Shown here piece after piece: positions 2,420 to 18,171 of a DNA stretch of 64,000 bases. Under the pieces are notes generated by a model. It ran no database searches. It saw only the letters and a list, made by a program, of their open reading frames with translations, and was not told the DNA's origin. Source of the stretch: Kitasatospora setae KM-6054 (GTDB taxonomy: Bacteria; Actinomycetota; Actinomycetes; Streptomycetales; Streptomycetaceae); contig NC_016109.1 in assembly GCF_000269985.1 (NCBI RefSeq), positions 4,650,001 to 4,714,000 of the forward strand, read 5' to 3'. The position numbers and the translations under genes are program-made. Position 1 is the first letter of the stretch. Each line of letters starts with the position of its first letter.

Positions 2420-2810
2420 AACCCGTTGCCGGTCGAAGGGCACCACTTAACCGACCCCAGTCCCGACCACCGCCCCGTCGCCCGAGCCGTCCCCCAGGGG
2501 GAACTCGACGCCCGCGGCATCCCCATCACCTGCACCAGCACTGCTCGGCCACGCAGTTGGAGGTCCAGGCCGATCAACTGCACCTCGGCCAGTTGGCTGG
2601 AGGTCAGCCGTTCGGGCTGCTTCGTGCCGGTCGGGTGCGGACGGCGTTGCCGATGAGTTCCGACACCACCAGCAGCACGGTGTCGATCAGCCCGGAGGGT
2701 GTCTGCCAGCGCTCCAGCACGTCGCGGGTGTGGCGCCTGGCCCAGCTGGCCGCGTTGGGGGTGTCGGCCAGCAGCAGGTGGTCGTGGTGCGTGGTGGGGA
2801 CTTGCGACAT
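2420..2810 (-). pseudogene. Decayed ATP-binding protein (RsbW-like HATPase)
   Basis: The first ~55 residues, from an ATG at 2808-2810, read SWARRHTRDVLERW then DTVLLVVSELIGNAV. This is the N-terminal helix and N-box start of the small Streptomyces anti-sigma-like histidine-kinase-type ATPases. The frame then breaks down (stop at 2604). Sequence further downstream still shows family-like pieces in other frames, such as VLVQVM and GDGSGDG. The usual length is about 140 aa, so this is an inactivated copy. It lies downstream of the methyltransferase gene on the same strand. Confidence 0.65.
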
Positions 2811-2878
2811 TGCGGACGCCTCCCGGCGGGGCGGTGGCCCGGGGCGACCGGGTCACCGCGCTGGTTGGGGCCGAGTGC

Positions 2879-3619
2879 CTACTTGGTGGCGATGACGTAG
2901 ACGCTGGCCCACTCGCGCTTCGGGTTGGCCAGGGTGGCGTCGAAGGTCCAGGGCTTCACGGTGCTGAAGCCGGCCTCGGTGAACAGCTGGGCGAGCTTCT
3001 CGAAGTCGTAGGCCCACAGGTGCGGGGTGTAGTGCGGGTCGTCGTCCTGGTCGCGGAAGACGTAGTTGACCAGGTCGAGGTAGGTGTTGATGTCGTCGCG
3101 GCAGCTGCGCTTGGAGTACCAGCGCCGGATCGTCTCGTCGGCCTCGGCCGATGCGGCCGGGTAGCGGTTGAGCATGTGTGCGGCGTCCGGCACTCCGGTG
3201 ATGACCTGGCCGCCCGGGGTGAGAACCCGGAAGCTCTCGGCGGCGAAGCCCTTGGCGGAGCGCGGGTAGTCGATGTGCTCCAGGAAGTGCTCGTTGAACA
3301 GCAACTCGACGGTGCCGTCCGGCAGCGGGACGCCCTCGCGCACGTCCCAGAGGAAGTCGGCCGGCGGTACCAGGTCGATGTTGAAGAAGCCGTCCAGCTG
3401 GTGGCTGCCGCCGCCGATCTGGACCTTGGCCGGTCGTTCCTCCGGGCCGTCGGGAAAGGCGCGCCGGGTGGCCCGGTGATAGCGGCTCAGCTCGACTTCC
3501 TTGGACGCGGCACGCAGCGCGCGGGCCAGGCCGTGGCCGGTGGTCGGCTCGGCGAGCACTCGCGCGATCTGCTCTCCGAGCAGGTCGATGGACGGTATGC
3601 CGGGAATGTCCGGTGACAT
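2879..3619 (-). CDS. Class I SAM-dependent methyltransferase
   Basis: A 246-aa cytoplasmic protein, last gene of the minus-strand operon. Residues ~65-90 (VQIGGGSHQLDGFFNIDL) correspond to motif I of Rossmann-fold methyltransferases. LFNEHFLEHIDYP is the typical motif of the methyltransferase-11/predicted SAM methyltransferase group (EHxxEH form). FRVLTPGGQVITGVPD is the post-motif III strand-turn. The start ATG at 3617-3619 has a GAGGAG ribosome site 8-13 nt upstream. The substrate is unknown; the operon context (NDK, CYTH, HD) suggests a nucleotide or phosphorylated small molecule, which is only an inference. Confidence 0.8.
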   Translation of the reverse strand: MSPDIPGIPSIDLLGEQIARVLAEPTTGHGLARALRAASKEVELSRYHRATRRAFPDGPEERPAKVQIGGGSHQLDGFFNIDLVPPADFLWDVREGVPLPDGTVELLFNEHFLEHIDYPRSAKGFAAESFRVLTPGGQVITGVPDAAHMLNRYPAASAEADETIRRWYSKRSCRDDINTYLDLVNYVFRDQDDDPHYTPHLWAYDFEKLAQLFTEAGFSTVKPWTFDATLANPKREWASVYVIATK

Positions 3620-3662
3620 GGCAGACGTCTCCTCGTCAGGGGTGGGGTGGGACCGGGGCAGG

Positions 3663-5066
3663 TCACCCGGTGCGACGGTGGGTTCGGGCGAGCGCGGGCG
3701 ACGCGGCCCACTGGTTGTTGCGCATCAGGGTGGAGCGGAGGTCCACCAGGCGCGGGGTGACCGTCAGGTCGAGCTGCTCGGTCGGGTGGAGGTTGCCGAC
3801 CTCGTCGGCTTCGGCGCGCCAGACGCGGTACCGGAGGTCCGGGTAGGCCGGGTTGATGCCGATCTCGCCCTTGGGGATGGTGCCGTTGAAGGGCGCGGGG
3901 ATGTCGAGGTGGTTCCAGTAGTTCCAGGCTTGGAGGGCCTTGACCTGGTCGAAGTAGAAGTAGAAGTCCGGCGAGCGGCCGAAGGTGCGCAGTTCGCGGT
4001 GGATCAGGTGGCCGAGCAGGGGGCCGAGTTGGGCGGCGAGGCCGTCGAACTCCCACTTGGTGTGGCGCCAGCGGTCCGGGGTCTGCCCGGGGGTGAAGAG
4101 GCGGGCGGCCACCAGGTGGCTGATGCGGTCGGTGAGGTAGGCCGCGGCCGAGGCGGGGTCGAGGGTGCGGTCGACCTTCGCCAGGGTGACGGCCAGGTCG
4201 GGCACGTGGAACTTGGCGAGGTCGAACCGGCCGATCATGCCGGGGACGGCGAACAGCAGTTCCTTGTAGAGCCAGTTGTTGAACTCGCCCAGTTCGGCCA
4301 GCCGCCGCGTGCGCGGGCTGGTCGAGTGCAGCATCACGTACTCGGACAGGGCCTCGAAGAACAGGTAGCCGAGGATCGGCAGGCGGGGGATCGTCGCGTC
4401 GAGCTGCCGCAGGAAGTCCGCGGGTTCGACGACCGCGCCCCGGTAGGCGACGGCGGCGGCCAGCGCCAGGAAGGCGGTGGAGTTCTTCACCCGGCTCACC
4501 ACCGTCTCGCGCAGCTGGTGCCGCTCGCTCTTGGACAGCAGGTATTCGAGGTGGGTGTAGATGGCCAGGTGGATCGAGCCGAGCCGCAGGTAGTCCACCC
4601 CGGCGAGCCCTTGGTACGCCTGCGGCGGCAGGTCCAACTCGAAGACCAGCGGGGTGGGTCGGTGGTCCGCCCGCCCGATCTTCGCGAGGAAGGCCGGCGC
4701 TTCGCGGGTGAGCACGTAGGAGCCGAGGTTGTGCGGACGGAAGCCGCTGCCCGTCGCGGTGAGCGGCGCGCAGTAGATGCTGCCGACCAGGCAGCCCCCT
4801 GACGGGTAGAGCACGCCGTCCCGGCTGATCTTCTCCAGGGCGTGGGTGACGTGCAGCAGGTGGAGCTTGCCGCCCGCGGCGAGGGAGTCGAAGAGGGCGT
4901 TGTGGCGCAGCAAGTGGCCGTTGGGGGTGCCGAGGGCGAGCCGGTCGGTCCAGGCGGCCTTCTGGGCGCCGAGCGGGTCGTCCGGGTCGGGCAGCGCCGG
5001 GACGAGGCTGGTACCGAAGAACGTGTGCGCGTCCGCCCAGCTCTCGTACGAGTCCGTGAAGTCCAC
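3663..5066 (-). CDS. Unknown 467-aa protein of the NDK/CYTH/HD operon
   Basis: I do not recognise the family. The GTG at 5064-5066 is chosen as the start because it follows the stop codon of the HD gene by only 4 nt, indicating translational coupling, and gives an N terminus VDFTDSYESWADAHTFFG. Notable stretches are LLHVTHALEKISRDGVLYPSGG with GSIYCAPLTATG (Cys and Gly rich, possibly a catalytic loop), a helical middle with FFEALSEYVMLHS, and HTKWEFDGLAAQLGPLLGHLIHREL near residue 350. Aromatic residues are abundant (FYFYFDQVKALQAWNYWNHLD). There is no signal peptide or membrane segment. Sandwiched between an HD protein and a methyltransferase, it is a candidate for the central enzyme of this pathway. 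Confidence 0.8.
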   Translation of the reverse strand: MDFTDSYESWADAHTFFGTSLVPALPDPDDPLGAQKAAWTDRLALGTPNGHLLRHNALFDSLAAGGKLHLLHVTHALEKISRDGVLYPSGGCLVGSIYCAPLTATGSGFRPHNLGSYVLTREAPAFLAKIGRADHRPTPLVFELDLPPQAYQGLAGVDYLRLGSIHLAIYTHLEYLLSKSERHQLRETVVSRVKNSTAFLALAAAVAYRGAVVEPADFLRQLDATIPRLPILGYLFFEALSEYVMLHSTSPRTRRLAELGEFNNWLYKELLFAVPGMIGRFDLAKFHVPDLAVTLAKVDRTLDPASAAAYLTDRISHLVAARLFTPGQTPDRWRHTKWEFDGLAAQLGPLLGHLIHRELRTFGRSPDFYFYFDQVKALQAWNYWNHLDIPAPFNGTIPKGEIGINPAYPDLRYRVWRAEADEVGNLHPTEQLDLTVTPRLVDLRSTLMRNNQWAASPALARTHRRTG

Positions 5067-5070
5067 GGCC

Positions 5071-5832
5071 CTACACCAGCCCCTTCTCGGCCACCGCGAA
5101 CCGGACCGCCTCGATGCTGGACGCACCGGCCAGGAAAGCGGCCTCCGAGGTGACGACGAGGTCGAAGGCCAGCGGCTTCAACTGCTCGAAGGCCGGTTCG
5201 CGGACGCGGCGGGCGTCCGGCCACCAGGAGAGCTTCGGCAGCCGGTAGCGGTCGAGGGCGTCCGCGGCCTTCACCAGGTCGCAGACGCGGGCGAACCGGG
5301 CGTGGTCGGCGCGGTCGTCGGCGCTGAACGCCTCGTACGGCACCTCGTGCAGCCGGGTTGCGGTGGCGGCCTTGACGACCTCGCCGGGGTTGGGCGTCCG
5401 GCCGAAGTGCGTCCAGACCAGGTCGGCGTTGGCGGCCAGCCAGATCGCGGCCCGGCCACCGTGCCCCGGGTCGTCCTTGTCGTGGTGGCGCTGGCAGTCG
5501 TGCACGGCTGCCGCGATGACCGCGGCGGCGGTGTCGGACTCGTCCAGGTCGTGCCGGTCGGCCAGCAGCGCGGCGAGTACCGCCGTCCGCAGGCCGTGCC
5601 GGTGCCCGTGGAGCGAGTCGGCGAGCCGGGGTTCGGCCAGCCACTGGACGGGGACGGCGGCCGACTCGACCAGGGTCTTGGTGCCGGTGCGCAGCGGCGG
5701 CGGCCAGGCCGACGGGAAGTCCGGCCGGTTGGCCTTGATCCACTCGACGGTGGCGGTGTCGGTGAACTGGTGGAGCGGCAGTTCCTTGCGGGCAGCCAGG
5801 GCGACCAGGCTGCCTGTGCGGGTCGTGCTCAT
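5071..5832 (-). CDS. HD-domain phosphohydrolase-like protein
   Basis: A 253-aa protein with the metal-binding pattern of the HD superfamily: GHRHGLRTAVLAALLADRH gives the first His, VIAAAVHDCQRHHDKDD gives the His-Asp doublet, and VCDLVKAADALDRYRL gives the distal Asp. HD enzymes hydrolyse phosphate mono- or diesters, often nucleotides. The start ATG at 5830-5832 lies 41 nt after the CYTH gene, and the 3' end is 4 nt from the next gene's start. The neighbouring NDK and CYTH proteins support a triphosphate- or nucleotide-linked substrate, but this is inference. Confidence 0.78.
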   Translation of the reverse strand: MSTTRTGSLVALAARKELPLHQFTDTATVEWIKANRPDFPSAWPPPLRTGTKTLVESAAVPVQWLAEPRLADSLHGHRHGLRTAVLAALLADRHDLDESDTAAAVIAAAVHDCQRHHDKDDPGHGGRAAIWLAANADLVWTHFGRTPNPGEVVKAATATRLHEVPYEAFSADDRADHARFARVCDLVKAADALDRYRLPKLSWWPDARRVREPAFEQLKPLAFDLVVTSEAAFLAGASSIEAVRFAVAEKGLV

Positions 5833-5873
5833 GGTGCGGCCCACCCCCTCGGTGGTCGGGACGGCTGGGAGCG

Positions 5874-6452
5874 CTACCTGATCTCGGCGGACCGCGCGGC
5901 CTTGCGGGCGGCTTCCGCGGCCTCGAAGGCGGCGGTGAAGGCGGCCAGCTCCTCCTCGCTCATCAGGGCGACGCCCAGCTCGGCGGCCGTGTCGATGATT
6001 CGGGCGGCGGCCTCGTCCTTGGCGGCGTCGGAGGCGCCGTCGGGCAGCAGCACCTCGAACTCGGCGTGGTGGCCCCACGCCTCGCTCCACTTGACCGCGA
6101 TCTCGACGCCGCCGAAGCGGAAGTTGCGGCGGAAGTTGAACGCCTCGTGCCGGGTGTCCTCGAAGCCCAGGGCCGCGAAGAGCTGAACGGCCTTGGCCAC
6201 GTCCGCCCGCGCGATCGGGAACTCGGTCTCGCCGAACGCCGTGCCCCGGCCGATCCTGCCGTCCTTGAGCGTGATCTTGGCGGTGTCGGCGGACTGGTTG
6301 TCGGTGACCTTCAGCAGCTGGTCCGGCAGCACGAAGAAGTGGATGCTCTTGTTGTCCTCGCCCAAGTCCTCACCGTCGCGGAGCAGCCGCTCCACCAGCG
6401 ACTCGTGGGTGTCCTTGTCGAACCGGGCGCGCATCTCGATCTCGACGGCCAT
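5874..6452 (-). CDS. CYTH-domain protein (triphosphate tunnel family)
   Basis: A 192-aa protein that opens with VEIEMRARFD, the ExExK/R-type strand of the CYTH (class IV adenylyl cyclase / thiamine triphosphatase) superfamily. It continues with alternating charged strands typical of the tunnel fold: LLKVTDNQSADTAKITLK, ETEFPIARADVAKAVQLF, RRNFRFGGVEIAVKWSE, AEFEVLLP. The middle also fits the class IV cyclase order. The C-terminal ~45 residues are an Ala/Glu-rich helix. The ATG at 6450-6452 has a GGGAGGAC ribosome site. It may hydrolyse a triphosphate or cyclise ATP; which of these cannot be decided by eye. Confidence 0.72.
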   Translation of the reverse strand: MAVEIEMRARFDKDTHESLVERLLRDGEDLGEDNKSIHFFVLPDQLLKVTDNQSADTAKITLKDGRIGRGTAFGETEFPIARADVAKAVQLFAALGFEDTRHEAFNFRRNFRFGGVEIAVKWSEAWGHHAEFEVLLPDGASDAAKDEAAARIIDTAAELGVALMSEEELAAFTAAFEAAEAARKAARSAEIR

Positions 6453-6603
6453 CGCGGTCGTCCTCCCTGTTTCGGGCATGGCTGATGGGGCCGAGCCGGC
6501 ATCAGGTACCCCCTGGCCGACCCGGATGGGCACGTGTTCAGTTGGTCGCCGGTGGTGCGGCCGGTCACTGCTCTCCCGGCCGCACCACCGGCCGTCCGCT
6601 ACG

Positions 6604-6903
6604 TCAGGCCAGCTCGCCGAACCGCTCGCGGACCACGCCCGGGTGCAGGTAGTTCGGCAGCGGCACGCCACCGACGGCGGTGCGCCGGGTCGCCACCTGC
6701 TCCTCGGTGTCGGACGGGAAGCCGTCCAGCAGCTGGAGGCACTGCTTGACCCACTCCCGCGAGGTGTCCCACTCGCCGGCGTCGCGCAGCCGCAGCGCCA
6801 GGGCGTACGCCGTCTCGGCCGCGGCCCAGCGGTCGGTCGCCAGCTCCTGCTGGAAGGCGGCCTCCAGCTCGGCCGGGGAGGCCAGGCGGATCGTGCTCGT
6901 CAT
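6604..6903 (-). CDS. Small 99-aa hypothetical protein
   Basis: A 99-aa soluble protein between the NDK and CYTH genes in the same operon. The first ~70 residues look like paired helices reminiscent of tetratricopeptide packing (ETAYALALRLRDAGEWDTSREW, LLDGFP). The C-terminal part is PLPNYLHPGVVRERFGELA. A GAGAGGG ribosome site precedes the ATG. I do not recognise it. The conserved-looking Trp and Pro positions and the operon setting suggest a specific accessory subunit. Confidence 0.7.
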   Translation of the reverse strand: MTSTIRLASPAELEAAFQQELATDRWAAAETAYALALRLRDAGEWDTSREWVKQCLQLLDGFPSDTEEQVATRRTAVGGVPLPNYLHPGVVRERFGELA

Positions 6904-6985
6904 CGTTGCCCTCTCGTCGTGCCAGTCGTTCCGTGGTGGTGAACTTGGCCGGCGTCCTCGGAGTGACGCCCGGACGGCCTTCGGG

Positions 6986-7495
6986 TCAGTAGATGTACGA
7001 CTCGGCCAGCGTCTTGTAGTCGAACAGCTCGTCCTTGGCGAACCACAGCTCGACTTCCTGCGCGGCTTCCTCGCGGTTGCCGGAGGCGTGGATCAGGTTG
7101 GCGACCGCCTTGCCGACGGTCACGCTGGCGCCCCGGCTCATGTGGGAGAAGTCGCCGCGGATGGTGCCGGCCGGAGCCTGGTCCGGGTAGGTGCTGCCCA
7201 CGATCTTGCGGACCGTTGCGATCGCGTCATAGCCCTCCAGCACCAAGGCGATGACCGGGCCCTGCTGCATGAAGGTGGCGGTCAGGTTGTAGACCTCGGA
7301 ACCGAGGCGCTCCTCCAGGTCCGCGTAGTGCCTGCGGGTGAACTCGGCGTCCATCCACTTCATCTTCGTGCCGACGATCTTGAGTGCGGCGTCCTCGAAC
7401 CGCTGCAGAACCCGGCCGGACAGACCACGGGCCACCGCGTCGGGCTTGAGAAGCACGAGCGTGCGCTCGACCTGCCCCTGGGTCTCCTCGGTCAT
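6986..7495 (-). CDS. ndk: Nucleoside diphosphate kinase
   Basis: A 169-aa enzyme that transfers phosphate between NTPs and NDPs. The N terminus RTLVLLKPDAVARGLSGRVL is the canonical NDK start. The active-site histidine is His136 in VANLIHASGN. GTIRGDF at ~110-116 is the conserved loop. An insert of about 13 residues (SHMSRGASVTVGK) between that loop and the catalytic His makes it longer than the ~137-aa housekeeping enzyme typical of actinomycetes. I therefore infer a specialised second copy. It is the first gene of the minus-strand operon and has an AAGGGGAAAGGG ribosome region. Confidence 0.92.
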   Translation of the reverse strand: MTEETQGQVERTLVLLKPDAVARGLSGRVLQRFEDAALKIVGTKMKWMDAEFTRRHYADLEERLGSEVYNLTATFMQQGPVIALVLEGYDAIATVRKIVGSTYPDQAPAGTIRGDFSHMSRGASVTVGKAVANLIHASGNREEAAQEVELWFAKDELFDYKTLAESYIY

Positions 7496-7899
7496 TTGTT
7501 CCCTTTCCCCTTGCCAGAGTGGTGATTTGACGATGTGTCGGATGTATCTGGCACTGAGGTTACCCGCGCCGGTGAAGCGGTTTTCGATTAGTCGGGTCGG
7601 CCCGCCGAGAGGTCGGACAGCCTGTCCTTCCGATCGCTCGATGCGGTGATCGGCCCTGGCCTAGAATCAGTCAGTACCGAACCCGCAACTGTCTGTGCAG
7701 AAGCGGGTCTTGGTCGCGAACCCCAGTCTGAAGCTGCCGCCGGCCCGGAGCCATGCCGTCGCAGTGCGGCCGCAGTGCATCCGCGGTGCAGCAGCCGAGC
7801 AGACCAGCCGCACCACGACCAGCGCGACCGAAGCACTCCGCCGCGCCCGAAGCGAAGACGCGAGGTGCGGCCAGGTATCGCTTTCCGGGAGGGCAGCAG
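7496..7899. promoter_or_regulatory. Divergent promoter region between ndk and NUDIX genes
   Basis: A 404-bp non-coding stretch separates the divergent ndk operon and the HTH-NUDIX gene, so both promoters should lie here. A TAGAAT hexamer at 7662-7667 is a plausible -10 box for the plus-strand gene, which would give a leader of over 200 nt. No convincing -35 box or named riboswitch was recognised. The region is richer in A/T than the flanking genes only around 7525-7600. Confidence 0.4.
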
Positions 7900-8547
7900 A
7901 TGGACGTCGTCGTGAGCTGGACGGGCAAGTCCGCCTGTCAGCTCCAGGAGGCACTGCGCGATACCAACGAAGCGTTCGCCGCCCGGCTGGGCATCGGACT
8001 GCGAACGGTGGCCAGCTGGCACAAGAGCCCCGAGCTGGTTCCGCGCACCGAGATGCACCAGTTACTCGACCAGGCACTGGAGACCGCTCCGCCCACCGCG
8101 CAGAAGCGATTCGCGCTCCTGATCGCGGAGCCCGGCGCCCAGGCCGCCCAGTCCTTGCGAGTTGCTGTTGCGGTGGTGGTCCGCGGCGCCGAGGTGCTGC
8201 TCGTCTGCCGCCATGACGACGAATCCGCCGGCATCCGCTGGCAGTTCCCGGCGGGCGTCATCAAGCCGGGCAGGAGTCCGGCGTCGACGGCCGTCCGCGA
8301 GACGCTGGCCGAGACGGGTGTCCACTGCCTGGTGGGTGAGGACCTCGGCGGGCGGCTTCACCCCGCCACCGGGGTGTGGTGCCAGTACTTCCTCGCCGAG
8401 TACCTGGCGGGCGTCGCCCAGAACCAGGACACGGCCGAGAACGCCGACGTGATGTGGGTTCCGCGAAACACGGTGACCCGCTTCATCCCCACCGATACGA
8501 TCTTCCAGCCCATCCTGGCCGCCTTGGAGGAGCCGCAGCATGACTGA
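7900..8547 (+). CDS. HTH-like N-terminal domain fused to NUDIX domain
   Basis: A 215-aa protein. Residues ~8-60 (SACQLQEALRDTNEAFAARL, then GIGLRTVASWHKSPE) look like a helix-turn-helix of the XRE type. Residues ~85-205 form a NUDIX hydrolase domain. The NUDIX box reads G-VIKPG-R-SPASTAV-RETLAETGV: the RExxxExG core is kept, but the first Glu is Arg and one Glu of the EE pair is Ala, so catalysis may be altered. The ATG at 7900 has a GGGAGG site upstream and is preferred over the in-frame 7753 start. The stop overlaps the next gene by 8 bp. A ligand-sensing regulator is a reasonable alternative to an enzyme. Confidence 0.75.
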   Translation: MDVVVSWTGKSACQLQEALRDTNEAFAARLGIGLRTVASWHKSPELVPRTEMHQLLDQALETAPPTAQKRFALLIAEPGAQAAQSLRVAVAVVVRGAEVLLVCRHDDESAGIRWQFPAGVIKPGRSPASTAVRETLAETGVHCLVGEDLGGRLHPATGVWCQYFLAEYLAGVAQNQDTAENADVMWVPRNTVTRFIPTDTIFQPILAALEEPQHD

Positions 8548-8956
8548 GCAGACCGACAAGCCGGGCATCGCCGCCGCCATCATCGTGCAGGACGGCCGCG
8601 TCCTGATGGTCCAGCGCCGGGTGAAGGAGGGCGAGCTGTCGTGGCAGTTCCCGGCCGGTGAGGTCGAGGCCGGCGAAACGCCGGAGGCGGCGGCCGTCCG
8701 TGAGACCGCAGAAGAAGTCGGCCTGACCGTGAAGGCCACCCGGCTGCTCGGCGAGCGCGTGCACCCGAAGACCGGGCGGCAGATGTCGTACACCGCCTGC
8801 GAGGTGGTGAGCGGAACCGCCACTGTGGTCGACACCGAGGAGCTGGCCGAGCTGGCATGGATTATTTACGACCAGATCGTCGATTTTGTGCCGTACGGCC
8901 TGTTCGGGCCGGTGCAGGCATACCTCGACGCCGAGATGCAGTCAGCATCCTTTTGA
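8540..8956 (+). CDS. NUDIX hydrolase
   Basis: A 138-aa single-domain NUDIX enzyme with a perfect box, G-EVEAG-E-TPEAAAV-RETAEEVGL. It would cleave a nucleoside diphosphate linked to another moiety. Its start overlaps the end of the HTH-NUDIX gene by 8 bp, so the two are co-translated. The sequence aligns by eye with the second half of its neighbour (QDGRVLMVQRR, WQFPAGEVEAGE). The pair may therefore derive from a duplication in which the upstream copy gained an HTH domain and lost catalytic residues. The exact substrate is unknown. Confidence 0.85.
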   Translation: MTEQTDKPGIAAAIIVQDGRVLMVQRRVKEGELSWQFPAGEVEAGETPEAAAVRETAEEVGLTVKATRLLGERVHPKTGRQMSYTACEVVSGTATVVDTEELAELAWIIYDQIVDFVPYGLFGPVQAYLDAEMQSASF

Positions 8957-9059
8957 ACCAGGTTGCTGTCCAACTCGGTGCACGACCCGCATCCCTCCGG
9001 TCGGAGCGTACCCCTCGCACGCATTCCAATAATGCAGTCGAATGATTATTTTAGCCTCG

Positions 9060-10184
9060 TCAGAAAGGAGGATCTGTAGCTTTCGACACCAGGGCTGCCA
9101 TTTCCTCAAGGCCAGCCTCTCGGAGATGTTGTTCGAAATCAGAATGGCGCCCATATGGGATTCCGCGCATCACCTCGATCAATGCATCGGTGGGCATTGA
9201 CTTCTTTTTGAAATCTGCAACTGTCGCACGCAGGCGATATTTATCACCCTTGCTGGCGATGCCACGGAGGATGAGATTCCTGTCGTCGATCCTTGCTTTT
9301 AGTTGAAAGTGATTCACTACTCCGCTGAGGCGGTCGAATTGTCTTCCGCTCCCGACTAGGCCAAGGAGCTTTTTTGCGTCAGATGGCAGTGCGGCCTGCC
9401 TCAGGTGGTCGACTGCCTTCTCGATATTGCCCGCTAGATGCCAAGCTCCAATGCAATTGAGATAGTAGTCCACATATTGACCAATTCCTGCCCGCCGCAT
9501 GCCTGCCACGATCGCAGGTGACGAGCCGGATCCGTGCCTACGGGCGGTGAGCCTTAGCAGTTCTAGTGCGGTGAGGTCATTCTCCTCGGGAGGGCCCCAC
9601 GGGTCGTCGCCCCAAGCTGAGGGCTGCCCCGGGGGGAATTCCTTTTCCAGGGCGGCTGCTAGCGAAACTATCCCCCTGGGCTCATCCTGGGATGCAACCT
9701 CAATGTAGCTGGAAATTTTCATCCCGGCGTTCATCATTTCGCGTAGAACTCCGGGAAGCCAGGCGGCCAGATGGTTACTGCGTGAGGCTTCGAGATCCGA
9801 CAGAACATCGAACATTTCTGCTTGCCGCAGCGGCTCCCAGTCGAATTCTAGACGGCTTCCTTCTTGGGGCGTTTGATCTGCGGCTGCATTCTCTTTCTTG
9901 TCCGCTTGGGATGGCGATCTGACAACTCTGTCTCGCCATACAGACTGATCAATCTCCTCAGGCGGGAGCGGGGAGTTGTTAAGGCGTCCGTACTCCCCCA
10001 GGGCCTCAACGATAGAGAGAACTTGAGTAAAATTTGCCGGGCTTCTGCCTGAGAACTTCTCCTGGATGGTTGAACGAGCCATCGGTCGATTGCGTCCTTG
10101 GCGAGCGATCAGGCGCTCGATCTCACGCACTGACGGCGATCCAGCATGTGTTCGTAGTTGACGAAGTTCGGCAGCCAGATCCAT
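9060..10184 (-). CDS. Streptomycete-type HTH regulator with large C-terminal domain
   Basis: A 374-aa protein. The N-terminal ~80 residues (MDLAAELRQLRTHAGSPSVREIERL, with RSTIQEKFSG and FTQVLSIVEALG) match the HTH domain common in Streptomyces proteins that pair an XRE-like domain with variable sensor modules. The remaining ~280 residues contain helical repeats (YYLNCIGAWHLAGNIEKAVDHL) of unknown role. The gene is visibly richer in A and T and uses rare codons such as TTT, AAT and AGT more than its neighbours, a sign of recent transfer. It is divergent from a small membrane protein gene. Confidence 0.75.
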   Translation of the reverse strand: MDLAAELRQLRTHAGSPSVREIERLIARQGRNRPMARSTIQEKFSGRSPANFTQVLSIVEALGEYGRLNNSPLPPEEIDQSVWRDRVVRSPSQADKKENAAADQTPQEGSRLEFDWEPLRQAEMFDVLSDLEASRSNHLAAWLPGVLREMMNAGMKISSYIEVASQDEPRGIVSLAAALEKEFPPGQPSAWGDDPWGPPEENDLTALELLRLTARRHGSGSSPAIVAGMRRAGIGQYVDYYLNCIGAWHLAGNIEKAVDHLRQAALPSDAKKLLGLVGSGRQFDRLSGVVNHFQLKARIDDRNLILRGIASKGDKYRLRATVADFKKKSMPTDALIEVMRGIPYGRHSDFEQHLREAGLEEMAALVSKATDPPF

Positions 10185-10447
10185 AGATCACCCCTCCTGC
10201 GCTGGACTGTCCAGTGCTGTCTGTGAATGTCCGGCATCGTCCGGAGCAGATGCCTGGCTCCTGGTAGGAGTGGTGTCCCCCTGTCCGGATGCTGCCGGAT
10301 CTTACCGTGCTGGTCGCCTTTGCTGAGCCGGACGGGTTCCTATGGAAAGGCAGAGACAGACCGTGCAAAGTAGGCAGCTGGTCGGGCTGGGACGCCTCGG
10401 AAGAGGGCTTACAGGCAGACCTGCGGCGTTTCATTGGAGAGGCTCAT

Positions 10448-10597
10448 ATGGATCTTGAAAGTTCATCCGGCCCGGAGTCCGGCCAGGAGCCGAGTGGCAA
10501 CACTCCCTCGGGCTTCAGTCGCCTGGTCATGCTGATGACCTCCTGCGCTGGTCTGATCGCGGCCGTGGCTGCCTTGATCACAGCCATTCGGAGCTGA
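10448..10597 (+). CDS. Small single-pass membrane protein (49 aa)
   Basis: A 49-aa protein. A hydrophilic N-terminal half (DLESSSGPESGQEPSGN) is followed by one predicted transmembrane helix (LVMLMTSCAGLIAAVAALIT) and a short basic end. A GGAGAGG ribosome site sits 6-12 nt before the ATG, which supports this start over longer in-frame readings. It is divergent from the HTH regulator, an arrangement that suggests a linked function, possibly a membrane sensor or toxin-like peptide. I do not recognise the family. Confidence 0.6.
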   Translation: MDLESSSGPESGQEPSGNTPSGFSRLVMLMTSCAGLIAAVAALITAIRS

Positions 10598-10711
10598 ACG
10601 GCCTATAACAGGCGAGTGCAGCACGGAGATTGGGTGGGAGTGTCGCGCGTCAGACTTTGTGGCAGGGCTCGTTTGTTGCGGGTCCTGCTGCGTGAAGGAG
10701 TCTGATCGATC

Positions 10712-11026
10712 ATGGTGAGGCCACCGGCACTGCCGCCGGAGGAGAAGGTCCGGATCGTGCTGTCGATCCTGGCCGGTGAGATGACCGTCGCCGAGGCCGC
10801 GCGGCGGGCGAAGGTGTCGGGGCAGTCGATCGGGACGTGGAAGCGCCGGTTCCTGGAGTCCGGCCGGGCCGGCCTCGCGGGCAAGTCCGGCCCCGGCACC
10901 CGGGAACGGCAACTCGAATCCCAGGTCGCCGACTTGACCCAGGCGCTGGGTGAGGCGGCAGTCGAGCTGCGGGTGTGGAAGAAGTCCGCGGAGGGCCGGT
11001 TGGGCCTTTCGAGGACCTCGAGGTGA
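10712..11026 (+). CDS. IS3-like transposase OrfA
   Basis: A 104-aa protein with an N-terminal helix-turn-helix (EEKVRIVLSILAGEMTVAEA, then ARRAKVSGQSIGTWKRRF) and a C-terminal leucine-zipper-like helix (QLESQVADLTQALGEAAVEL). This is the usual architecture of IS3 OrfA. The 3' end overlaps OrfB, which lies in the -1 frame, consistent with programmed frameshifting to give the OrfAB transposase. Confidence 0.8.
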   Translation: MVRPPALPPEEKVRIVLSILAGEMTVAEAARRAKVSGQSIGTWKRRFLESGRAGLAGKSGPGTRERQLESQVADLTQALGEAAVELRVWKKSAEGRLGLSRTSR

Positions 11027-11969
11027 TCCGCGCCGAGGCGGGCATGCCGACCGCGAGGTTCTGTCGGCTGATCGGCGTGCCCGAGCGGGCCTGGCGCCGT
11101 CACCAGGCCCGTGCCCGCCAGGGCGCGCCTACCAGAGGGTCGTGGCCGCGTCCGGCCCGCGAGGGCGTCCGGGAGACCGCCCGCCGGCACGCGCTCGCGC
11201 ATCCGGCCTGGGGCCACCGCAAGGTGTGGGCGATGTGCCGCTGGGACGGCCACTGCGTCTCCCAGGCGACCGTGTTGCGACTGCTGCGGGACGAGGGCCT
11301 GCTGCTGGAGGCGAACTACCAGCGCGAACGGCGCCAGCTCGCCGCCCGCCGCAAGGCCGCCTTCGCGACCGAGCCGACCGGCCCGAACCAGGTCTGGCAG
11401 CTGGACTTCTCCGCGTTCGAGACCGCCTCGGGCGGGACCTGGCGGCTCGCGGGCTGCCGGGACTACTGGTCGAAGTACGAGCTCGGCCGGCACGTGTCGC
11501 CCACCGCGAACCAGCACGACGCCGTCGCTGCGATTGAACTCGTCTTGAGGGAACGGAGTTGCTGGCCGGGAAGCCACTGGCCGAGTTCGCCCCGCGCGAC
11601 GCGGGCGGGACCGTGAAGCCGCTGGTCACCATCGTGACCGACAACGGCGGACCGTTCCGCTCCTTCCGCATCGAGGCGTTCATCGCCACCCGACCGGAGT
11701 TGCGGCACGTCCGCACCCGGGTCCGTACGCCCGGGCAGAACGGCTCACGTGAGCGCGGCTTCGGCTCGCTCAAGTACGAGAAGCTGTTCCTCGAGGAGAT
11801 CCCCGACGCCCTCGATCTGGTCCGGCACGCCGAGGACTACCGGCGCGACTACAACACCGTCCGACCGCACGAGGCCCTGGCCTGGAACCGGCCCCACGAC
11901 GTCCACACCGGCGCCGCGGACCCGCTCGTCCCCAATTTTCCCGAACCCGAAAACCTGCCAACTGCTTGA
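10975..11969 (+). pseudogene. IS3-like transposase OrfB, frameshifted
   Basis: The catalytic subunit is split over two frames. The first part (to 11616) includes the HTH_21-like region and the first catalytic Asp in QVWQLDFSAFE. The second part, in the -1 frame (readable from ~11544 to 11969), carries the second Asp in VTDNGGPF and the Glu in NGSRERGFGSLKYE of the DDE triad. The two frames overlap near 11550, where the product continues as ELLAGKPLAEF, so one small indel explains the break. The encoded integrase domain cannot be made intact without a second frameshift. Confidence 0.8.
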
Positions 11970-11978
11970 CGCGGGACA

Positions 11979-12023
11979 GACTTTTAATCCGTAGGTTCAG
12001 GGTTCGAACCCCTGGCGGCCCAC
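11979..12023 (+). repeat. 45-bp direct repeat, right att-like copy of tRNA-Lys
   Basis: An exact copy of 1861-1905, covering the anticodon loop to the 3' end of tRNA-Lys. The 5' half of a tRNA is absent, because the IS3-like element ends one base before it, so no functional tRNA is encoded here. A terminator similar to that of the intact tRNA follows. Confidence 0.9.
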
Positions 12024-12056
12024 CTGCGACGAAGGGGCTCGGCCCCCGTCCGTAGT

Positions 12057-12092: not shown

Positions 12093-12307
12093 TGTGGTTT
12101 CGGGCCGGCCGTGGCTTGCGGGGAGGAGCCGGATCCGTTCTTCCGTGATCACTTTCTTTCATGGTTCATTGAATCTCGGACTTCTAGGCTGATTGATGCT
12201 GTCCATCGCGCATCCTGTGCCAGTGAAAGCACCTCCGATGGTGCTGGTGATCGTGTGAATCATGAGGACAGCCAGTGAATTCAGGGCAGCAAATGACTCC
12301 GGGCTAG

Positions 12308-13711
12308 TACTGCAACGGTGCTTACCGTGACGGTTGTTGGGTTCGCTCGTTGGGCGGTTCATGGGTGGAGACATATCCGAGGTCGATGCTCGTCGCTGGT
12401 CGGACGGGCTGGCCGACCTGCACGAGCGGTTTGCTCACCGGTTCGCGCGGAGCGAGTCGCGCGAGTCGGCACTGGCCTACATGCGGGGCCTGCTGGCGCC
12501 GTTGGAGCGCAAGAACGGCTGGACGGTGGCGGAGGAGGCCGGCCATGGCGGGCCGGACCGGATCCAGAGGCTGCTGAACCGCATCGACTGGGACGCGGAC
12601 GGGGTGCTCGACGACGTGCGCGAGTACGTCGTCGAGCACCTGGCGGATCCCTGCGGCGTGCTGATCGTGGACGACACCGGCTTCCTGAAGAAGGGCGTGC
12701 GGTCAGCCGGCGTCCAGCGGCAGTACTCCGGCACCGCGGGGCGGACCGAGAACTGCCAGGTCGGAGTCTTCCTCGCCTACTCCAGCGAGCTGGGCCGGAC
12801 GTTGATCGACCGGGCGCTCTACCTGCCGAAGTCCTGGACCGACGACCGCGTGCGCTGCCGAACGGCCGGGATCGGCGACGAGGTCGAGTTCGCCACCAAG
12901 GTCCAGCTCGCACGGGCGATGGTCCGCCGCGCGATCGACGACAAGATCCCGTTCCGCTGGGTGACCGCGGATGCCGGCTACGGCTACAGCAAGGGCTGGC
13001 GCTACGAACTCGAGCAGGCCGACGTCTTCCACGTCATGGCCACCACCAGCCACGACACCGTCGTCACCTGGCAGGCCATGGACCATCGGCTGCACGACCT
13101 GGTCGCCGACCTGCCCCGGCAGAGGTGGAAGCGCCGCTCCTGCGGCGAGGGCGCCCACGGCCTGCGGATCTACGACTGGGCTCGCGTGGAGGTCCGCCCC
13201 TGGCACCGTCCTGACCGCAGGCACTGGGTCCTGGCCCGCCGCAGCATCAGCGATCCCACGAAGGTCGCCTACTACATCGCCTACGCGCCGGCCGAGGCCA
13301 CACTCAACGAGTTGATCGCCGTCGCGGGCGCCCGTTGGGCGATCGAGGAGTGCTTCCAGACCGCGAAAGGCCAGTGCGGCCTCGACGACTACCAGGTCCG
13401 CCGCCACCCGGGCTGGTACCGGCACATCACCCTGGCCATGGCCGCCCACGCCTACCTCACCGTCGTGCGGGCCCAGCAGCTCGAAAAGGGGCCGGACCCG
13501 CTCGAACGCCAGACCTGGTACCCCTCACCCTCCCCGAGATCCGCCGGCTGATCACGCAGCTCACCCGGCCTGTCCGCCGCAGCATAGGCCACGTCCTGCA
13601 CTGGTCCCGATGGCGCCGCAGACGCCAACAACAGGCCCGGACCAGCCATTACAAGAGACGAGGCCACAGCCCAAGAGCTGAAGCCTCGTCAGGGTAAGCA
13701 CTGTTGCAGTA
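12308..13711 (+). mobile_element. IS701-family insertion sequence
   Basis: Terminal inverted repeats start TACTGCAACRGTGCTTACC at both ends (left from 12308, right to 13711). The 4-bp sequence CTAG flanks each end directly (12304-12307 and 13712-13715), which is the target duplication known for the IS701 family. The 1.4-kb length and a single transposase gene also fit. The insertion lies just upstream of the putative nuclease gene and may have separated it from its promoter. Confidence 0.88.
12361..13697 (+). pseudogene. IS701-family DDE transposase, 3' frameshift
   Basis: The translation from 12361 follows the IS701 transposase pattern: LAPLERKNGWTVAEEAGH, the DDE-fold motif VLIVDDTGFLKKG, RWVTADAGYG for the second Asp, and WAIEECFQTAKGQCGLDDY for the Glu region. 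The frame stops at 13551 after RQTWYPSPSP. The expected family C terminus (LVPLTLPEIRRL ... VLHWSRWRRRRQQQARTSHY) continues in another frame to 13697. One indel near 13515 therefore removes about 60 residues, and the copy is likely inactive. Confidence 0.85.
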
Positions 13712-13763
13712 CTAGTTTCCGAAGGTCCTTCCGTGGCCGGCTCGCGCCGGAGGCGCACCGCAT

Positions 13764-14680
13764 GTGCCGGGCGGCCCGACGGAGATCATCAGGAATCTCA
13801 GGGCGCTCTTGGAGGACATTGCGAGGGACTCCGGCTACGACCGGTCCTTCACCTGGCCGGGGGCGGACACTCCGACCCAACTACGCAAGGTGATGCACCT
13901 CATGGGTACCTGTGGGCTCGTGGTCCGCGAGGGGCGTCCGATGCGGCTGGGACTCACGGAGGCAGCCCGTCACTTCCTTGCCACCGGTGACGAGCTCTAC
14001 CTGATCGGGGTGCTCCACGCGAACGTGAGGTTCATCGGGGAGGCGCTCGCCGGTGTCGGAGAAGGCAAGACCCACGTCGAGTTGAACAAGGTGGCGGTCG
14101 AGCAGTACGGCCTCGGCTGGGAATCGCTCGATCAGGTGCGCCGACGTGTGTACTGGCTCCGGGCGGCCGGGCTGGTCGAGTTCTGGAGCAACGGCAGGAT
14201 CGTTCTGACCGAACGGGGCCGGCAGTTCCTGCCGTTCCTGGAGTCGGCGAAGCCGGAGGATCTGCCGCACCGTCGCAAGGGCTCGGCGACGGATCTCGAA
14301 CTCCCAGCGCCAACTGCCTTGTTGGCGGTCGGTCTGGAGGGTCTCGACCAGGTGGCGCTGCGGGAGCGGAAAATTCCCACGGGGTACGTCGCGGGTGGGT
14401 GGCGAGTGGAGGGGATCAGCCGCCTGGTGAACGCGGCCGTTCCCGAGATCGACCGGGACGGTTTCACGGCCTTCTGCGTTGAGGAGTTCGGTGTTTCGGA
14501 GTCGTCTGCGGAGCAGACCCTGCAGACCCTGCGGGCATTGGGATTTCTGACTCAGGTGGGGGCTGACGCGTTCGCCGCGAGTGACCTCGGTGCGAGTTGT
14601 CTGGCTTCGGGCGAAGCGCTGGACCTCATCCGGTTGCTGCACATGAAGGTCGCGTTGGTGGGGGTGGGCTTGATCCGCTT
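13764..14680 (+). pseudogene. 5' half of IS-split winged-helix/nuclease gene
   Basis: About 305 codons from a GTG preceded by a GGAGG site 10 nt upstream. The product is made of repeated winged-helix-like units: LRKVMHLMGTCGLVVREGRP, then VRRRVYWLRAAGLVEFWSNG, then LQTLRALGFLTQVGADAFAA. The frame enters the left terminal repeat of an IS3 element and ends ten bases into it. The reading resumes after the IS at 15934 with the nuclease half. The two halves have the same strand and codon style. The intact protein would be roughly 750 aa. The join is inferred, since no clean target duplication was found. Confidence 0.6.
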
Positions 14681-14719
14681 TGACGGACACTCCTGATCAG
14701 GGGCTTCGGCCCCGGAAGG

Positions 14720-15040
14720 ATGATGTCCATCATGGAGAGCATGGGGAAGAAGAAGCCGCGCCCTCGCCGCTCGTTCACGCCGGAGTTCAAGGCCGAGATC
14801 GTCGAGCTGTGCCGACGCGGCGACCGTTCGGTCGGCCAGGTCGCCAAGGACTTCGATCTGACCGAGACCGCGGTGCGTGACTGGATCAAGCAGGCGGAGG
14901 TCGACGCTGGCCAGCGCGATGGCCTGACCAGCGACGAGCGCGAGGAACTGGCGAGGCTGCGGCGGGAGAACCGCCGTCTGCGGGAGGACGTCGACATCCT
15001 CAAGCGCGCCACGGCTTTCTTCGCGAAGGAGACCCGGTGA
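14720..15040 (+). CDS. IS3-family transposase OrfA
   Basis: A 106-aa protein with the HTH of the family (SFTPEFKAEIVELCRRG, SVGQVAKDFDLTETAVRDWI) and a zipper helix (LARLRRENRRLREDVDILKR). It ends ATAFFAKETR, a very typical IS3 OrfA terminus. OrfB starts in the -1 frame within the last codons (GTGA), so an OrfAB fusion can arise by programmed frameshifting. Confidence 0.92.
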   Translation: MMSIMESMGKKKPRPRRSFTPEFKAEIVELCRRGDRSVGQVAKDFDLTETAVRDWIKQAEVDAGQRDGLTSDEREELARLRRENRRLREDVDILKRATAFFAKETR

Positions 15041-15909
15041 CGGTGCACCCGTTCATCGAGGCGGAGAAGCAGGCAGGTCACAACGTCAAACGGGCGTGCG
15101 AGCTGCTCAAGGTCTCCCGTGCCGCCTTCTACGCCCGCCGCACCGTCACCCCCGGCCCGCGCGCGGTCCGGGACGTCGAGCTGACCGAGAGGATCACGGA
15201 GGTCCACGCGACCTCGCGCGGCAGCTACGGTGCCCCTCGGATACATGCCGCACTCCAACGCGGCGGCGAGCGGTGCGGCCGCCGAAGGGTCGCCCGGCTA
15301 ATGCGGCAGGCCGGACTGCAGGGCCGGCACCGCCGACGGCAGCAACGCACCACCATCCCCGATCCGCGTGCTGCCCTGCGGCCGGACCTGGTCCTGCGGG
15401 ACTTCCAACCCGACCCGACCGCCCTCGATGCACGGTGGTGCGGCGACATCACCTACATCCCGACCGACGAGGGCTGGCTCTACCTCGCCACCGTCATCGA
15501 CATCGCCTCCCGCCGCGTGGTCGGCTGGGCCACAGCCGACCATCTGCGGACCGAACTCGTCGCCGACGCCCTGCGAGCCGCCTGCCACCAGCGGCACCCG
15601 AACGGGCCGGTGGTCTTCCACTCGGATCGCGGCTGCCAATACACCGGTCGTGAATTCGCCGATCTGGCAGGCAAGTTCAACATTCAGCTGTCAGTCGGCC
15701 GGACCGGCCAGTGCTGGGACAACGCACTCGCCGAGTCCTTCTTCGCCACCATCAAACGGGAGCTGATCGGCGACCGGCCCTGGCCCAGCCGATCCGCTGC
15801 CCACAGCGCGATCTTCGAGTGGATCGAAGCCTGGTACAACATTCGCAGGCTGCACAGCAGCCTCGGCTACCGCAGTCCCGCCGAGTACGAGACCGTCCTC
15901 GCGGCCTGA
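15037..15909 (+). CDS. IS3-family transposase OrfB (DDE integrase)
   Basis: A 290-aa catalytic protein. An HTH_21-type N-terminal region (GSYGAPRIHAALQRGG) precedes the rve core. The DDE residues lie in WCGDITYIP, VFHSDRGCQYTG and DNALAESFFATIKRE. The C terminus YNIRRLHSSLGYRSPAEYE is the family hallmark. Length and motifs are complete, so the transposase should be functional. Confidence 0.95.
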   Translation: MTVHPFIEAEKQAGHNVKRACELLKVSRAAFYARRTVTPGPRAVRDVELTERITEVHATSRGSYGAPRIHAALQRGGERCGRRRVARLMRQAGLQGRHRRRQQRTTIPDPRAALRPDLVLRDFQPDPTALDARWCGDITYIPTDEGWLYLATVIDIASRRVVGWATADHLRTELVADALRAACHQRHPNGPVVFHSDRGCQYTGREFADLAGKFNIQLSVGRTGQCWDNALAESFFATIKRELIGDRPWPSRSAAHSAIFEWIEAWYNIRRLHSSLGYRSPAEYETVLAA

Positions 15910-15933
15910 TCACCACACCGCGGGTGTCCGTCA

Positions 15934-17280
15934 AAGCGGAGCAAGCTCAGGGAGACCCTGGATGCGATCACTGGCGAGGTGAAGGCCGCTGAGCTTGTGG
16001 ACCTGTTGGCTCGCCGCTACCCCGGTGTGCATCTCACCCGGGAGGAGACGACGCGTCGCATCGCACTGTTGCTGGAGACCGGGTTGGCGGAGCGGATCGG
16101 ACTGGTCATCCGGAGGACCGAGTTGGGGACCGCGCTGGTCCGGACGCTCCCGCTGCTTGATCCGTCGGACGGCACCGATCCGGCGGGCGGAGCGGCCGGG
16201 GAGCACCCCGGGCCGCCGCGGACGACGGAGAGCGTCGTCGACGTCCCGAACTGGCGTGAGCTGCTGGCCGCCGAGATCGTCCGGGCGGCCACGGACAGTA
16301 CGGACCACCAGCGGTTCGAGCGGGCGGTTGCCAGGGCCTTCCGCACGCTCGGGTTGGAGGTCGAGGCTCATGGCGGGCCGAAGAAGACCGATGTGGTCAT
16401 CGATTTGTGGCGGTCGCCGACCGACCGGCTGCGGGTTGCGGTTGAGGTCAAGACGGACGGAGCGGGGCTGGTCACAGACCAGGACGTCAAGTTCCTGCGG
16501 CTGGGTGAGCACCGGGCCCGCCACGGAGCGCAGCACACCCTGTTGGTCGGGCCCCGCTTCGACACCCGGGTGCAGCGAGAAGCGGCCCAGGACGGAGTCG
16601 CTCTGCTCACTGCGGAGCAGCTCGCGGACGCCGTGCTGCGTCACGGCCGCACCCCGTTGGCACCGCACGAGATCTCCGGACTGGTGACCGTGACGGACGC
16701 GAGCGGGTTCGAACCGGTCTGGCAGGCGGCGGAACGGCGACAGGACGCGCTGAGTCAGGTGTTGCTCGCCTTGTGGCGGAGCGGGAACGATCCTGCCGAC
16801 ATCGAGCACAATGCCGGTGCGCTCGGGGTGCGCGACATCTGGCGGGAGACCAAGGGGGCCTTGGAGACGCCGCTGGAGCGGCAGGAGATCGAGGAAGCTC
16901 TGGAGTTCATGGCGTCGCCGTTCGTGGCCGCGGTCGCGCAGAACCACGGCGATCACGTCGTCACGGTGCCGCCGGCCCTGGTCGCCGCTCGGCTGCGGGC
17001 GCTGGCCGCAGTGATCGACGCCGCTGGTGGTGCGGGTACCACTGCGGGAGGGGCTATCACGGACCCGCCCCGGCCGTCCCCGCAGTCCGTCCCCGTGTCA
17101 GAGCCACAGGAGCGGGAGGCGGCAGGCGGGACCGTGGCCGTAACGGTGGCCGAGGGTGTGGATTCGAGGCTGGTCCGGAAGTGGGCCAAGAGCCAGGGGC
17201 GGGTGATCAGCGAGCGCGGGCGGCTGTCCAGCGGGTTGATCAAGGAGTACCAGCGAGCCCACGGTCTGACGGGCGACTGA
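15934..17280 (+). CDS. PD-(D/E)XK nuclease with Lsr2-type C-terminal domain (3' half of split gene)
   Basis: The open frame runs from the IS right end; an internal GTG at 15979 could act as a start, giving 433 aa. After a winged-helix-like piece (ELVDLLARRYPGVHLTREET), residues ~105-180 form a restriction-endonuclease-type fold: FERAVARAFRTLGLEVEAHG, then KKTDVVIDLW, then VAVEVKTDG, giving the D...ExK catalytic set. Residues ~395-433 (VDSRLVRKWAKSQG, VISERGRLSSGLIKEY) match the C-terminal DNA-binding domain of Lsr2, the actinobacterial H-NS analogue that binds A/T-rich foreign DNA. A Pro/Gly-rich linker of ~50 residues precedes it. A defence nuclease is inferred. The IS insertion probably disables or truncates it. 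Confidence 0.72.
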   Translation, partial: KRSKLRETLDAITGEVKAAELVDLLARRYPGVHLTREETTRRIALLLETGLAERIGLVIRRTELGTALVRTLPLLDPSDGTDPAGGAAGEHPGPPRTTESVVDVPNWRELLAAEIVRAATDSTDHQRFERAVARAFRTLGLEVEAHGGPKKTDVVIDLWRSPTDRLRVAVEVKTDGAGLVTDQDVKFLRLGEHRARHGAQHTLLVGPRFDTRVQREAAQDGVALLTAEQLADAVLRHGRTPLAPHEISGLVTVTDASGFEPVWQAAERRQDALSQVLLALWRSGNDPADIEHNAGALGVRDIWRETKGALETPLERQEIEEALEFMASPFVAAVAQNHGDHVVTVPPALVAARLRALAAVIDAAGGAGTTAGGAITDPPRPSPQSVPVSEPQEREAAGGTVAVTVAEGVDSRLVRKWAKSQGRVISERGRLSSGLIKEYQRAHGLTGD

Positions 17281-17362: not shown

Positions 17363-17689
17363 ATGGCCAAGACCAGGATCAGCATCAGTCTCGACAGCGA
17401 TCACGCCGAGCGCATTCGGGAGCATGCCGAGCGCGCGGGTCTGGATGTTTCGGCTTATCTCGTCAACGCCGCTACCCGGCAGATGGCCGAGGCGGAAGCC
17501 GCTGAGGCGCAGTTCGCGCGGATCGACGCGGTGATCGCCGCGGCGGAGGCGGAGGCCGCCGAACTGCCTCCGCTGCCTGATGTCGCCGATGAGGACCTGA
17601 CGGAGGATGAGCGCCGGGAGGTCGCGGAGGCCATGGAGCTCATCTATGGTGCGGACGCTCCTGCGGCCCGGCCGGGCAACGCCGCGTGA
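17363..17689 (+). CDS. Ribbon-helix-helix antitoxin
   Basis: A 108-aa protein with an N-terminal RHH DNA-binding domain (KTRISISLDSDHAERIREHA, GLDVSAYLVNAA) and an acidic Ala/Glu-rich tail (EDLTEDERREVAEAME) that would wrap the toxin. The 3' end overlaps the toxin start by 4 bp (GTGA), the standard toxin-antitoxin layout. Tandem CGTAATA sites upstream suggest autorepression. Confidence 0.82.
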   Translation: MAKTRISISLDSDHAERIREHAERAGLDVSAYLVNAATRQMAEAEAAEAQFARIDAVIAAAEAEAAELPPLPDVADEDLTEDERREVAEAMELIYGADAPAARPGNAA

Positions 17690-18171
17690 CCACGCGGGTG
17701 CCGGTCTACGACACCGGCATGCTGATCGCGCTCGCCGACCGAAAGCCCAAGGCTGTACGGCTGCACGCCGGCCTCAAGGACACACCGCATCGCGCGGTCG
17801 TGCTCGGCCCGGTGCTGGCCCAGGTGTGGCGACCCAGTCCCGCCACTGTGCACGCCATGGCCGCGGTCCTCAAGGACTGCACGGTGCCCCAGGCGCGCAG
17901 CTCGGCCCTGGCGATGCGCCCCACTACTGCCGGCCAGACGGTATGCATCATGTGTGCGACCGGGCCGGATCTGGCGGAGTGGCAGCGCATCGGTAGCGCG
18001 CTCGCCGTGGCCGAGTTGCCTCCGAAGAAGCGCCCGGACGCCGTGGATGCCTTGGTCGCGCTGACTGCGGCCCGACACGGCAGCGCCGTTGTTTTCACCA
18101 GTGACCCGGATGACCTCACGGCTTACCTGAAGGCGTTGGACGCCCAGGACGTCCATGTGGTCCAGATCTGA
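17686..18171 (+). CDS. PIN-domain-like toxin
   Basis: A 161-aa protein starting at a GTG that overlaps the antitoxin stop. VPVYDTGMLIALADR supplies the first conserved Asp of PIN RNases. RPDAVDALVALTAARHG and VVFTSDPDDLTAYL supply the distal acidic cluster. VLGPVLAQVW fits the second helix, where the usual Glu may be replaced by Gln. It would cleave RNA when free of its antitoxin. The pair is VapBC-like, though more divergent than typical VapC. Confidence 0.78.
   Translation: MTTRVPVYDTGMLIALADRKPKAVRLHAGLKDTPHRAVVLGPVLAQVWRPSPATVHAMAAVLKDCTVPQARSSALAMRPTTAGQTVCIMCATGPDLAEWQRIGSALAVAELPPKKRPDAVDALVALTAARHGSAVVFTSDPDDLTAYLKALDAQDVHVVQI

Follow-up and report, generated by a model that had tools for sequence, protein, structure and literature searches.

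Several described systems share features with the locus examined here. In the type IIS restriction endonuclease FokI, the nuclease domain comes after several winged helices. Winged helix-nuclease fusions are known as sensors of N6-methyladenine (6mA), mostly without a methyltransferase gene next to them (PMC11037411), and the DNA-binding end of Lsr2 has been found fused to Ku, a repair protein, in cluster J mycobacteriophages (PMC8612146). Elements that lie between attachment-site (att) repeats at a tRNA gene, in tandem with others and without integration genes, have been described as cis-mobilizable elements (CIMEs) (PMC5704250), and insertion sequences (ISs) are known to disrupt defense genes (PMC10359306). 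Here, we describe a broken gene for a putative restriction-type nuclease with an Lsr2-type tail in Kitasatospora setae KM-6054. The gene is located in a stretch of 64,000 nucleotides, positions 4650001 to 4714000 of the 8.78-Mb chromosome, which is referred to as the window. Coordinates are those of the window unless a genome or a locus is named, and the annotated features are on the forward strand unless otherwise indicated.

The gene was represented by 2 open reading frames (ORFs) at positions 13764-14696 and 15979-17280, which the original prediction, made from the sequence alone, had taken to be the halves of a single gene split by an IS. The closest intact relative was identified in Kitasatospora phosalacinea NBRC 14627, where a single ORF of 771 amino acids (L024:5020-7335) covered both halves, with protein identities of 90% for the N-terminal half and 85% for the C-terminal half. 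The 2 halves therefore belong to one gene. Six additional homologs of 761 to 829 amino acids also spanned both halves in one ORF (L025, L027, L028, L030, L031, and L032). The homologs were examined for 2 unrelated adjacent genes and contained single ORFs instead, which rules out that explanation. The prediction of one protein was thus confirmed, with a full length of about 770 rather than 750 amino acids.

The gene is broken into 3 pieces by 2 ISs, of which only one had been recognized previously. DNA similarity to K. phosalacinea extended to position 12303, stopped, and restarted at position 13716. The 5′ piece at positions 12275-12303, which aligned to L024:5020-5048, contained the native GTG start codon at about position 12275; position 13764, previously taken as the start of the gene, is thus not the native start. 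The overlooked IS, at positions 12308-13711 (12304-13715 including the CTAG on both sides), was 1,404 bp long with inverted ends and encoded a DDE_5 transposase at positions 12334-13551 (Pfam E-value 1.9e-49). It interrupts the gene about 10 codons into the sequence and thereby severs the true start, and it was present in the genome as 4 identical copies and one copy of 99% identity. The middle piece, positions 13716-14664, encodes the first pair of winged helices and the larger part of the second pair and was 90% identical to residues 28-327 of the K. phosalacinea protein. It is followed by the predicted IS3-family element of 1,285 bp at positions 14665-15949 (orfA 14720-15040, orfB 15037-15909; NCBIfam transpos_IS3 E-value 7.5e-98), which had matching inverted ends, TGRGCTTGNTCCGCTTTGACGGACAC, and a GGG duplication and recurred, identical in sequence and length, at genome positions 3621316-3622600. 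The uninterrupted version of its insertion site was retained in K. phosalacinea. The 3′ piece, positions 15950-17280, encodes the end of the fourth winged helix, the nuclease domain, a C-terminal helical part, a linker, and the Lsr2 tail, and was 85% identical to the K. phosalacinea protein. Reading through the first junction revealed one in-frame TAG codon. Since the pieces were otherwise open and the IS copies were identical, the sequences suggest that the gene was broken recently.

The nuclease domain at positions 16294-16632 matched PF04471 (Mrr_cat) with an E-value of 2e-7 and 31.4 bits, compared to the curated cut-off of 21. The D of the TD motif (16390-16392) and the E (16444-16446) and K (16450-16452) of the (D/E)xK pair were conserved in all 17 aligned relatives, from the Streptomycetaceae to the Firmicutes. 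A model of the domain built from the window sequence and 6 homologs was obtained with a mean predicted local distance difference test (pLDDT) score of 85 and a predicted template modeling score of 0.82. The top structural matches to this model were restriction endonucleases (Z-scores of 12.8 to 11.6), the best of which was the FokI cleavage domain (Z-score 12.8 over 143 residues, 3.4 Å), and further matches were obtained to Nt.BspD6I (12.0), HindIII (11.7), and AspBHI (9.2). A search by sequence for relatives among solved structures gave nothing beyond a chance match to a winged helix. The proposed PD-(D/E)XK nuclease thus agreed with the Pfam match, the modeled fold, and the conserved residues. 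No methyltransferase was identified by a motif search within 6 kb of 18 loci with homologs, which argues against an ordinary restriction-modification pair.

The 400 residues at the N-terminus consisted of a duplicated unit of 2 winged helices, as inferred from a profile comparison of residues 24-196 with residues 215-402 (probability 99.8, E-value 5.7e-30, 164 columns). The matches of this array to several winged-helix families in Pfam were weak, and some of them were above the cut-off in the homologs. The repeated winged helices of the original prediction were thereby recovered as a duplicated pair.

The C-terminal tail, encoded at positions 17158-17259, matched the Lsr2 DNA-binding domain PF23359 with an E-value of 1.6e-8 and 34.2 bits, compared to the cut-off of 26.9. 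Its consensus sequence was VRAWAKAQGRAVSERGRLP, as opposed to IRAWAKENGYEVNDRGRVP in the Lsr2 proteins of the Streptomycetaceae. The RGR motif was present in 7 of the 8 aligned tails and replaced by RGK in L027; motif and domain match together upheld the predicted resemblance to Lsr2. Actinobacteria use this domain to recognize foreign DNA that is rich in A/T. The N-terminal oligomerization domain of Lsr2 gave no match in the intact protein, in which only Mrr_cat and Lsr2_DNA-bd were above the cut-off.

Relatives with 24% to 31% sequence identity ended at the point that corresponds to the start of the linker in the tail-bearing proteins, and the plasmid-encoded relatives in Gordonia, Priestia, and Staphylococcus were also tail-less. 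The tail-less homologs in Streptomycetaceae, Gordonia, and low-GC Firmicutes shared both the winged-helix array and the active site with the tail-bearing proteins, so the nuclease can carry out its basic task without Lsr2. In a tree inferred from the core of the protein, all 8 tail-bearing sequences clustered in a single clade with support values of 100/99. Because the relatives are tail-less and the tail-bearing proteins form one clade, the tail was probably gained once, within the Streptomycetaceae. Over the last 50 residues, a short stretch with noisy estimates, the ratio of nonsynonymous to synonymous substitution rates (dN/dS) was mostly between 0.15 and 0.5, with one pair at 0.76, suggesting that the tail has mostly been kept under constraint.

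Long ORFs with Lsr2 domains were also screened for further tailed nucleases; most were ordinary Lsr2 genes with an open frame upstream. Two of them, L123:1133-1942 (+) and L127:1560-2291 (−), appeared by eye to encode a SUKH (SMI1/KNR4) domain followed by an Lsr2-type C-terminal tail. These SUKH-like fusions suggest that the Streptomycetaceae have used the tail repeatedly as a module. Furthermore, the tail at L032:8987-9163 (−) weakly matched the C-terminal end of the PADLOC type II methyltransferase model PDLC03328 (positions 535-572 of 587, E-value 0.007), a hint that Lsr2-tailed methyltransferases exist.

The distribution of the nuclease family was patchy, with members in 12 of 395 genomes from the Streptomycetaceae and in 5 of 346 genomes in the class. 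Searches of viral contigs and phage records gave no relative at the sensitivity levels applied, and a viral origin was therefore rejected. The Priestia plasmid gene was located next to an ABC-three-component system and an AbiH gene. The Gordonia plasmid gene was located directly after genes for a TnsA-like protein, a Mu-type transposase, and an AAA ATPase (region L041:1164-8046), and may be the cargo of a Tn7-like element.

In K. phosalacinea, the nuclease gene was located on an island of 3.87 kb bounded on both sides by the 3′ end of tRNA-Lys(TTT), a 44-bp direct repeat without mismatches, together with only 2 other genes, for a ribbon-helix-helix (RHH) protein and a PIN-domain protein. A similar island of 3.93 kb in Streptomyces typhae was flanked by a 45-bp repeat of the end of tRNA-Pro(CGG) with one mismatch (44/45) and contained genes for the nuclease, a Phd-type antitoxin, and a PIN-domain protein; strain HmicA12 also contained an island of this kind, in which the nuclease gene was truncated. 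A scan with loosened motifs identified no recombinase motif, and hence no integrase, in the K. phosalacinea, S. typhae, and HmicA12 islands. By their sequences, these small islands fit the definition of CIMEs, and they may have moved accordingly. In the window, the tRNA-Lys(TTT) gene that serves as the integration site was located at positions 1832-1905 (ARAGORN). A second copy of its 3′ end, at positions 11981-12024, marked the left border of the nuclease island and matched both of the K. phosalacinea repeats (100% identity over 44 bp), with no such match expected by chance. The nuclease gene was followed by a gene for an RHH protein at positions 17363-17689 (RHH_1 above the cut-off), a probable antitoxin, and by a gene for a PIN-domain protein at positions 17686-18171 (PF01850, E-value 1.6e-4, just under the Pfam cut-off), a probable toxin. 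Antitoxin-PIN pairs of 3 kinds were located near 8 of the 11 tail-bearing loci, although the L025 case was weak. They followed the order of VapBC-type systems, with an RHH or Phd gene preceding the PIN gene; several of the PIN scores were just under the Pfam cut-off.

Three of the 11 tail-bearing loci were broken: those in the window, in HmicA12, and in genome G009. The N-terminal part of the nuclease was missing in HmicA12 and its C-terminal part was out of frame or stopped, while only remnants of 62 and 46 residues were left in G009. The antitoxin and PIN genes were still open in all 3. At a fourth site, in G024, an island remnant beside the same tRNA gene contained an incomplete PIN gene and no nuclease gene. 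A comparison of the window with K. phosalacinea gave dN/dS ratios of 0.058 for the RHH gene and 0.048 for the PIN gene, whereas the 2 nuclease pieces had values of 0.15 and 0.32. The intact nuclease genes had ratios of about 0.2 to 0.4, indicative of purifying selection. This pattern of loss is consistent with a nuclease that is costly and located next to an addictive toxin-antitoxin pair, and it lends indirect support to the original suggestion of a costly gene, although 4 losses cannot prove a cost.

Other sequences at these tRNA genes were also noted. About 10 kb between the tRNA-Lys gene and the second att copy in the window (1906-11980) had a GC content of 0.68, as compared to 0.76 in the flanks, and contained, among other genes, an IS3-like pair, a methyltransferase-like gene, and 2 NUDIX genes. 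A search of this segment for integrase motifs was negative, and we interpret the segment as another element that is arranged in tandem with the nuclease island. In Streptomyces beijiangensis, 4.5 kb between tRNA-Pro att copies, including a PIN-like gene, followed the nuclease island (L026:2910-7372), and small islands bounded by att copies can therefore stack in tandem. In G009, the island remnant and 2 att copies (L039:7974-17782; G009:C1:1275056-1275648) were located about 120 kb from the flank of the tRNA-Lys gene, which points to a tandem array of very large size or to a rearrangement. A recombinase-like C-terminal fragment, LGHSSITITGDIY, was located near position 17481 of L039, close to one of the att copies and outside the nuclease island.

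We consider it somewhat probable that the 3 pieces represent one inactivated, stand-alone nuclease of the restriction type, acting without a methyltransferase in defense against phages or plasmids, with winged helices that read the target and an Lsr2 domain that serves as a tether. The duplicated winged-helix pair would recognize a feature of the target DNA, whether a sequence, a modification, or a structure, and thus make the choice between self and non-self, and the FokI/Mrr-like PD-(D/E)XK domain would cut. In one clade of the Streptomycetaceae, a flexible linker adds a single Lsr2 DNA-binding domain that would hold the enzyme on A/T-rich DNA and thereby enrich it on foreign DNA in a host with a GC content of 73%. 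The gene would travel with an antitoxin-PIN pair on small islands without an integrase between tRNA-end repeats. In the window, the 2 ISs destroyed the nuclease and left the toxin-antitoxin pair intact. A defensive role, put forward in the original prediction, is plausible because of the patchy distribution, the islands, the location of plasmid relatives beside defense-type genes, and the conserved active site.

Several observations weigh against this reading. The identification of the array as winged helices draws on weak Pfam matches and the order of helices and strands, and the model of the full-length protein, based on a shallow alignment, was poor (pLDDT 45) and gives a hint of the helix order only. 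PADLOC gave no clear model match, only weak partial ones such as PDC-S02 (E-values of 0.014 to 0.05 for the tail-bearing proteins). A right border repeat of the window island was looked for and not found, and no antitoxin-PIN neighbor was present at 3 of the tail-bearing loci (L030, L031, and L032). Finally, the tail would also bind the A/T-rich loci of the host itself, and self-damage must be prevented somehow.

The most serious alternative, which we nevertheless regard as unlikely, is a type IV endonuclease that depends on DNA modification. Like DpnI and the winged-helix fusion endonucleases, it would use its winged helices to recognize methylated bases or bases with other modifications, and the tail would provide no more than general affinity for DNA. 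It is a narrower version of the favored reading, with the target of the reader named. The 6mA-sensing fusions, mostly without a methyltransferase neighbor (PMC11037411), the lack of methyltransferase motifs within 6 kb, and the presence of the modification-dependent AspBHI among the structural matches (Z-score 9.2) are in line with this idea. However, FokI and HindIII were better structural matches than AspBHI, no specific type IV reader domain was matched above the cut-off, and the array contains 4 winged helices, unlike the type IV winged-helix fusions.

It seems improbable that the Lsr2 domain alone distinguishes self from non-self and directs the enzyme to cut A/T-rich DNA. The probable single gain of the tail, its retention, and the RGR motif, intact in all tail-bearing homologs but one (RGK), speak for such a model, but the tail-less relatives, including those in low-GC Firmicutes, have kept the active site and the array, the host has A/T-rich loci of its own that are bound by Lsr2, and there is one Lsr2 domain only, with no Lsr2 dimerization domain. 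The tail-less homologs thus weaken the original prediction that cutting by base composition is the core function. A nucleoid-bound regulator or repair nuclease carried on mobile islands by chance is most improbable: regulators often contain winged helices or Lsr2, and Lsr2 is fused to the repair protein Ku in mycobacteriophages (PMC8612146), but the patchy distribution, the islands, the plasmid relatives beside defense-type genes, and the conserved restriction-type active site all speak against it.

Within the favored reading of a tethered restriction-type nuclease, a bolder version, to which we give only tentative credence, is that one clade of the Streptomycetaceae uses a domain of the host silencer to locate invading A/T-rich DNA, with a single mark read in both silencing and restriction, and that the nuclease spreads between tRNA sites as a minimal nuclease/toxin-antitoxin cassette without an integrase of its own. 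If the tail steers cutting, a xenogeneic-silencer domain would be used for destruction rather than silencing, and the contribution of base composition to the self/non-self choice of a nuclease would become testable. The recurrent 3.9-kb islands with a nuclease and a toxin-antitoxin pair, intact or decayed with the pair left, provide a compact natural case of small defense cassettes that settle and decay at tRNA genes.

Each part of the protein is already known. No published Lsr2-tailed restriction-type nuclease was found in the open-access literature searched, which leaves out most subscription journals. The nuclease domain has a fold like those of the FokI cleavage domain, Nt.BspD6I, and HindIII. 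Like FokI, the window protein has several winged helices ahead of the nuclease, but it differs in the duplication of the winged-helix pair, the Lsr2 tail, and the absence of an identified methyltransferase partner. It resembles the Mrr-type endonucleases (PF04471) in its catalytic domain, which matched above the cut-off and was preceded by winged helices, whereas its N-terminal array is much longer and it has an extra C-terminal part and the Lsr2 tail. With the 6mA-dependent type IV winged-helix fusions (PMC11037411) it shares a winged helix joined to a nuclease, usually with no methyltransferase nearby, but it contains 4 winged helices and the tail. The DNA-binding domain with the RGR motif is common to the window protein and the xenogeneic silencer Lsr2, but here it forms the tail of a nuclease with no detected oligomerization domain. 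The Ku-Lsr2 fusions (PMC8612146), the closest tail of this type described so far, similarly join the DNA-binding end of Lsr2 to a DNA-processing protein, which is a phage repair protein in that case and a bacterial restriction-type nuclease here. As in CIMEs, the K. phosalacinea and S. typhae islands have kept both att repeats and contain no recombinase motif, but their content is limited to the nuclease and a toxin-antitoxin pair.

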